DNA of 64,000 nucleotides from Streptomyces lydicus (GTDB lineage: Bacteria; Actinomycetota; Actinomycetes; Streptomycetales; Streptomycetaceae), in the NCBI RefSeq assembly GCF_001729485.1, contig NZ_CP017157.1, positions 8,137,358 through 8,201,357 of the forward strand. Reading direction: 5' to 3'. Positions 4,268 through 4,399 of the stretch are shown in pieces (position 1 is the first letter of the stretch; every line of letters starts with the position of its first letter). A program made the translations under genes and the position numbers. Below the pieces are notes generated by a model. The model saw nothing but the letters and a program-made list of their open reading frames with translations, made no database searches and was not told the origin of the DNA.

Positions 4268-4399
4268 CTCCCTACGCCGGCATTACCCGGTAACAGGTTC
4301 GGCGGTCGACGCAGCGGCTTCCGTCCGCCGGTGTTTCACGTGAAACACCGCTGGGACGAAGGTCAGCGCCCTCTCAGCCCGGTGCTCCGAGCTCCCGCG
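4268..4399 (-). promoter_or_regulatory. TPP riboswitch (THI element) of thiC, with a parS in its variable stem
   Basis: Read on the minus strand, the leader contains the two conserved halves of the TPP aptamer: GGGCTGAGAGGG near 4370-4381, and ACCTG followed by GGGTAATGCCGGCGTAGGGA near 4271-4307. The conserved end overlaps the AGGGAG ribosome site of thiC, which suggests control of translation initiation. The roughly 60-80 bases between the halves, where optional stem P3a occurs in this class, contain the perfect parS palindrome at 4333-4346 within the 20-base self-complementary stretch GGTGTTTCACGTGAAACACC. Confidence 0.9.
4333..4346. other. parS site (perfect), inside the thiC riboswitch
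   Basis: Exact GTTTCACGTGAAAC, the ParB-binding centromere sequence of Streptomyces. It is the outermost copy from the par operon seen in this window, about 55 kb from parAB. Confidence 0.9.

Follow-up and report, generated by a model that had tools for sequence, protein, structure and literature searches.

According to the accessible part of PMC2258182, the optional stem P3a is present in 552 TPP riboswitches and absent from 355 others. In Streptomyces, the parS sites of the ParABS system (GTTTCACGTGAAAC) are clustered round the origin together with parAB, and the available text of PMC4852455 and PMC12511625 gives 23 central parS sites plus one further site for S. coelicolor and 16-17 sites for S. 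venezuelae. Near the origin of S. venezuelae, ParB complexes span about 40 kb (PMC4852455, available sections). In P. aeruginosa, parS3 and parS4 are located upstream of genes, and an effect on these genes has been measured (PMC7022226, available sections).

In this study, we analyzed a window of 64,000 nucleotides (the whole stretch of DNA under examination) in which a perfect parS site lies in the leader of thiC. The leader resembles TPP riboswitches with P3a (RF00059) in its conserved core, helix arrangement and location directly 5' of thiC, but its P3a differs in having at the tip a sequence-specific DNA site, which hardly varies among the leaders that contain it (hereafter carriers). As in the described Streptomyces arrays, the sites are clustered with parAB; here, however, one parS is found in a metabolite-sensing RNA, an sRNA contains two and several others cap long hairpins, and no such overlap appears in the available text of PMC4852455 and PMC12511625. 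As in P. aeruginosa, a parS site stands upstream of a gene, although measurements of gene expression support an effect in that organism, whereas the present case is known from sequence and the site is within the leader RNA itself. What is new is the overlap of two known kinds of element, the P3a of a TPP riboswitch and a Streptomyces parS. No description of parS inside a riboswitch or sRNA was found in the open-access literature as far as its text was available, most subscription papers being outside that search. The relevant features of the window are as follows.

2464..4257, minus strand: thiC (ORF; PF01964, E 1.2e-188)
4252..4408, minus strand: TPP riboswitch aptamer (RF00059) in the thiC leader (cmscan; consensus fold)
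4308..4370, minus strand: P3a, optional stem (window coordinates from the fold shared by 89 carriers; position of the cmscan insert)
4329..4350, unstranded: 22-bp palindrome around parS (comparison of flanks)
4333..4346, unstranded: parS, perfect 14-bp predicted ParB site GTTTCACGTGAAAC (exact match)
4480..5844, plus strand: YibE/F-like gene, divergent from thiC (PF07907, E 3.3e-72)
57790..58890, minus strand: parB (PF02195, PF17762, PF23552)
58887..60179, minus strand: parA, adjoining parB (PF13614, E 2.5e-58)

The thiC leader (4408..4252, minus strand) matched RF00059 over the whole model (positions 1-105/105, 43.8 bits, E 7.2e-07, cmscan) and contained the conserved core segments CUGAGA, ACCUG and CGUAGGGA, which bears out the TPP aptamer proposed for this leader in the initial annotation. 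The match leaves 53 positions unshown inside the stem after CUGAGA, and this stem is taken as P3a, the optional stem of TPP riboswitches (cf. PMC2258182). The aptamer occupies the leader of a thiamine gene, thiC (PF01964), whose ATG is at 4257, and the end of the aptamer model overlaps the first thiC codon. Since the leader is enclosed between thiC and the divergent YibE/F-like gene starting at 4480, 71 bp are left outside the aptamer. Thus, 4252-4408 on the minus strand is a full-length TPP aptamer directly upstream of thiC, for which TPP binding and control are predicted. Its score is below the Rfam gathering score of 54.3, which is a detection threshold and not a structural feature, and the same is true of all 20 Streptomyces thiC leaders checked (38.6-47.4). 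Because ten parS carriers (38.6-44.2) and ten non-carriers (38.6-47.4) scored alike, the low values point to a divergent subgroup rather than to the parS insertion, and the aptamer core appears to be unspoiled by parS. Based on thiC and its leader, the nearest named carrier was S. lydicus (98.0% over 2017 bases).

Comparison of the leader with RF00059, a check suggested in the initial annotation, placed parS inside P3a. This stem is composed of a base stem (4370-4366/4312-4308), a middle stem (4360-4356/4324-4320) and the parS-bearing tip. The perfect 14-bp site within a palindrome was recovered at 4333-4346; the palindrome had been given as 20 bases, but comparison of the flanks extends it to 22 bp (4329-4350). 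As RNA, it makes up the tip of P3a, a 9-bp stem capped by an ACGU loop, and the hairpin proposed previously was found when 89 unique carrier leaders were folded together with RNAalifold. Their consensus comprises P2, P3, P4, P5 and a P3a of three parts, the last of which is the parS hairpin. P1 is absent from this consensus; the covariance model draws it using non-standard pairs. Pairing probabilities in the parS hairpin of the window were 0.97-1.0, with 0.74 for the outermost pair (consensus fold), and the mean over the parS stem was at least 0.94 in 89/89 carrier leaders. Folding of the single leader sequence was uninformative on the aptamer, with a stability no better than that of shuffles (z -0.58), and the consensus was used in its place; the minimum-energy structure differs from the aptamer, yet contains the parS hairpin.

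The genome of the window contains 40 perfect and six one-mismatch parS sites. Forty-five of these 46 are within about 255 kb of the two ends of the contig, and a reversed control pattern gave no match. Within the window, 20 parS-like sites with up to two mismatches were found versus 0.03 expected. The core in the thiC leader is identical to other sites of the array and lies, as array sites do, in a cluster confined to one chromosomal region with parAB. The lone outlier of the genome is a one-mismatch site about 0.5 Mb from one contig end. For a contig of 8,201,357 bases, 46 parS-like sites are about twice or more the published numbers for S. coelicolor (24) and S. venezuelae (16-17), as given in the available text of those reports.

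To examine the distribution of the arrangement, parS variants between CUGAGA and GAACCUG were searched in genome contigs of 84,980 species, from which near relatives of the window may be omitted. The 87 matching records comprised 85 titled Streptomyces, one titled 'Actinobacteria bacterium OK074', whose leader is of the same kind as those of Streptomyces carriers, and one Nitrospinota MAG (L125), which was taken as a chance match and rejected, its letters showing no TPP features. The arrangement is therefore present in 86 records, and thiC is downstream in 84/84 with enough sequence. S. venezuelae, the species of the ParB ChIP-seq work according to the available text, is not among the titles of carrier records. 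In addition, two samples of the genus were searched with patterns blind to the core, which matched 96/199 and 224/392 genomes, the 168/392 genomes outside the patterns presumably having other P3a lengths or linker letters. From both samples, 172 leaders were chosen blind to the parS core among the matches listed (L013 not included), and thiC follows in all 172 of these listed leaders. Their closest approach to parS was two-peaked: among these listed matches, 16 had no mismatch, 30 had one, none had two to four and 126 had at least five. The last group, again among the matches listed, resembles shuffled inserts, whose nearest approach to parS was three mismatches (20 x 172 shuffles). Because forms with two to four mismatches are missing among the 172 leaders listed, the definition of carriers by the core is harmless. 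Judged from these sequences, the placement of parS in the thiC leader does not appear to be due to chance.

On the other hand, parS is not general to the genus: this idea was rejected, as the perfect-core pattern was found in 9/199 genomes, one of which (L013) has no TPP core by letters. With 126 of the 172 leaders among the matches listed lacking the site, parS in the leader is optional, and neither function requires the overlap. One might suppose that an origin-near parS once fell into the thiC leader and was inherited passively, with no RNA constraint. The 40 perfect parS sites of this genome, all towards the ends of the contig, and the 126/172 listed leaders without the site agree with such a coincidence. 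However, passive inheritance predicts decayed copies, and 0/172 leaders among the matches listed had two to four mismatches. The flanks of the site also covary as base pairs, and an asymmetric variant of the core is found solely in the RNA-compatible orientation (both described below). We consider this explanation unlikely.

The covariation was examined in 78 unique carrier inserts, obtained from the 89 aligned ones by leaving out L007, whose row was in reverse orientation, and L045, which has an irregular partial second site, and merging identical rows (L125 was excluded). Observed pairing was compared with shuffles that treat the carrier inserts without regard to their relatedness. The pair directly beside the core (-1/+1) was paired in 78/78 inserts, with TA, CG, AT, GC and TG all occurring (shuffle maximum 72), and -2/+2 was paired in 77/78 (shuffle maximum 67). 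For -3/+3, 74/78 were paired against a shuffle mean of 68.6 and a maximum of 74, which was not exceeded, and pairs -4/+4 to -6/+6 showed no excess over the shuffled maximum in the 78 unique inserts. In the middle stem, the inner pair was paired in 66/72 inserts with 18 double changes (shuffle maximum 61; n=72 as six of the 78 inserts are outside the middle-stem pattern).

The core behaves differently. By parsimony on the thiC tree of 46 carriers, it underwent eight changes over its 14 sites, all at two positions, leaving 12/14 unchanged. The eight flanking stem sites had 30 changes in the same carriers, the first and the second flanking pair each changed state five times, and the fastest thiC codon phase had 4.86 changes per site. 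The P3a ends of non-carriers have quite different sequences that vary freely among other Streptomyces. A stem needed as RNA only would let the core covary, and a site needed as DNA only would let the flanks break; as the core is nearly frozen and the flanks covary, both appear to be selected. Such a pattern is what would be predicted if selection acted on the site in DNA and on the stem in RNA alike.

It could be argued that the hairpin is kept only as RNA, because it aids folding or is recognized by a protein, and that ParB makes no use of its likeness to parS, and the pairing and covariation of the flanks would be expected in that case. But the core should then vary as freely as the sequence outside it, in contrast to the 12/14 core sites unchanged in 46 carriers, and the P3a ends of non-carriers are quite unlike it in sequence. 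Moreover, the core equals sites in the rest of the array. An exclusive role in RNA is thus extremely improbable.

The orientation of the asymmetric variant separates the DNA and RNA readings. GTTTCACGTGGAAC and GTTCCACGTGAAAC are one and the same DNA site on opposite strands. In the orientation of the RNA, GTTTCACGTGGAAC leaves a G-U pair, while GTTCCACGTGAAAC would leave a C-A mismatch. The scan was open to both orientations, and TPP matches had 46 cases of GTTTCACGTGGAAC versus none of GTTCCACGTGAAAC, which was also absent from all 172 leaders among the matches listed. The ratio of 46:0 gives graded support and not proof, because only about four changes on the thiC tree underlie it. GTTTCACGTGGAAC was present in 17/18 genomes examined, mostly no more than about 300 kb from thiC, and it recurs tens of kb from thiC in many genomes. 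Of five genomes bearing the CATG form at thiC, four contain it once more at a distance of 46-50 kb; single copies elsewhere are within about 55 kb of thiC in two genomes (G233 and G093) and more than 4 Mb away in a third (G064).

Taken together, the sequence arrangement is well supported, and its function is a prediction. We think it quite probable that P3a accommodates at its permissive tip a segregation parS that is kept foldable for the riboswitch, with ParB loading inferred. As DNA, the parS of the thiC leader would be a member of the origin-proximal array and would load ParB for segregation; as RNA, the same bases would make up the end hairpin of P3a, a reading backed by covariation and folding. 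Because P3a accepts many sequences, a palindromic DNA motif could stay there, presumably with no harm to the sensor as long as it is folded. Selection may then hold the core for ParB and keep its surroundings paired for the RNA, and no regulatory coupling would be required. The locus may thus offer a small natural example in which a single sequence has two readings, an exact DNA motif and a paired RNA stem, and carriers and non-carriers provide ready comparisons.

The initial annotation had suggested that one sequence serves both segregation and thiamine sensing. The dual constraint on DNA and RNA, evident in the frozen core and covarying flanks, supports part of this suggestion, but not the part of parS in sensing itself: the aptamer is present without parS in 126/172 leaders among the matches listed, and P3a is optional (PMC2258182, accessible part). 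It had also been stated there that dual use would be chance if related species had the riboswitch without parS and parS elsewhere. This state was found in many relatives, and it follows that the dual use is dispensable and restricted to certain lineages; the frozen core and the covarying flanks nevertheless speak against coincidence.

A further possibility is a coupled switch, in which ParB at the leader parS alters thiC transcription as a roadblock or repressor (a block by ParB was considered in the initial annotation), or transcription of thiC displaces ParB, and the state of segregation and thiamine synthesis would influence each other. The location of parS inside the thiC leader would suit it. 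According to the available text of PMC7022226, P. aeruginosa ParB at the intergenic parS3 and parS4 represses PA0011 and PA0013, and in S. pneumoniae mutation of one parS is enough to induce comCDE 5 kb away. However, in the same available text, other genes near parS1-4 of P. aeruginosa were unchanged, in a ParB1 system the change was limited to three genes of the occupied region, and in S. pneumoniae 0/8 genes affected by ParB loss were near parS. In addition, the overlap is absent from 126/172 relatives' leaders among the matches listed. Such a switch is therefore very unlikely, although less so than a role in RNA only.

With regard to the history of the site, its presence requires at least four changes on the thiC tree of the 172 leaders among the matches listed, and at least five in a hand-picked set of 56 rows; related sequences thus have part of their history in common. 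Carriers fall into groups of 29, 14, 2 and 1 members on the thiC tree. A single carrier clade in thiC was rejected by the AU test (p 9.2e-05 with 21 carriers in 56 rows; p 5.6e-04 with 18 of them), for which the rows were hand-picked and the group was named after the first tree had been seen, a use that the tool warns about. On the other hand, parS starts 24-26 bases after CUGAGA in 46/46 carriers, and the motif CCCAGCG beside parS occurs in 10/14 and 2/29 members of the two main groups and in 0/126 non-carriers among the matches listed. Because of this fixed start and the motif common to both main groups, a single origin fits best: the site probably descends from one old version of P3a and was later lost in places, or leaders were exchanged between lineages. 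In one carrier (L045, Streptomyces sp. TRM64462, 2789-2881), an extra partial parS was observed directly before the P3a core, as if a duplication had begun.

The thiC leader is not the only structured element with parS in the window, and four further features were identified.

10623..10791, minus strand: sRNA Scr3920 (RF02828) with two parS sites in a variable insertion (82.0 bits, E 1.3e-13)
21766..21797, minus strand: terminator-like hairpin with parS (21775) at its tip (terminator scan; fold -31 kcal/mol, z -5.75)
21811..21848, minus strand: terminator-like hairpin with parS (21823) at its tip (terminator scan; fold -36.3 kcal/mol, z -6.29)
45391..45432, unstranded: perfect palindrome, at least 42 bp long, centred on parS (45405) (flanks; fold -48 kcal/mol, z -9.2)

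Scr3920 was matched over the complete model (1-125/125, 82.0 bits versus a gathering score of 88), and besides it no Rfam match other than the TPP aptamer was found in the window at E 0.1. Its two parS sites, a perfect one at 10692-10705 and one with one mismatch at 10711-10724, are located in a variable stretch before the last hairpin. Scr3920 was matched in 17/18 other genomes searched. The longer form with parS was present in 3/17 (G064, G090 and G293), all of which have parS in the thiC leader; the insertion was absent from the other 14/17, where the form is 124-127 nt.

The hairpins at 21775 and 21823 stand 3' of an aminotransferase gene on the minus strand, and the parS at 21823 ends 21 bp from the stop of the gene at 23002..21857. 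The palindrome at 45405 is located between two convergent genes, and its hairpin was missed by the terminator scan despite its strong fold because it has no T tail. Folds at 32865 (z -0.98), 10692 (z -3.70, another fold) and 54695 (z 0.17) were not clearly of the long-hairpin type, and a search of 16 stretches of the same genome, holding 26 parS-like sites outside the window, gave no RNA family in Rfam at E 0.05. In 12 other Streptomyces genomes, perfect inverted-repeat arms extended at least 4 bp beyond the core in 23/115 perfect parS sites (shuffles 2.9, maximum 9) and at least 8 bp in 11/115 (shuffles 0.3, maximum 2), in a sample that covers part of the sites because its pattern restricts the twelfth flanking base, and in which at least one thiC site is included and orthologous sites are counted separately.

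Thus, the habit of parS sites of sitting in predicted structured RNA is wider than thiC and extends to Scr3920 and to terminator-like hairpins. This raises possible interference between ParB complexes and the transcription of nearby RNAs. A bolder view would be that the Streptomyces centromere is partly made of RNA genes, and that ParB loading and RNA transcription interact and couple thiamine synthesis and sRNA output to segregation, which we regard as unlikely. We also observed parS inside the parB and parA genes (58694, 59818 and 60104), and the surroundings of the site at 60104 were similar in at least 6/12 other Streptomyces genomes, with identical letters in two of them.
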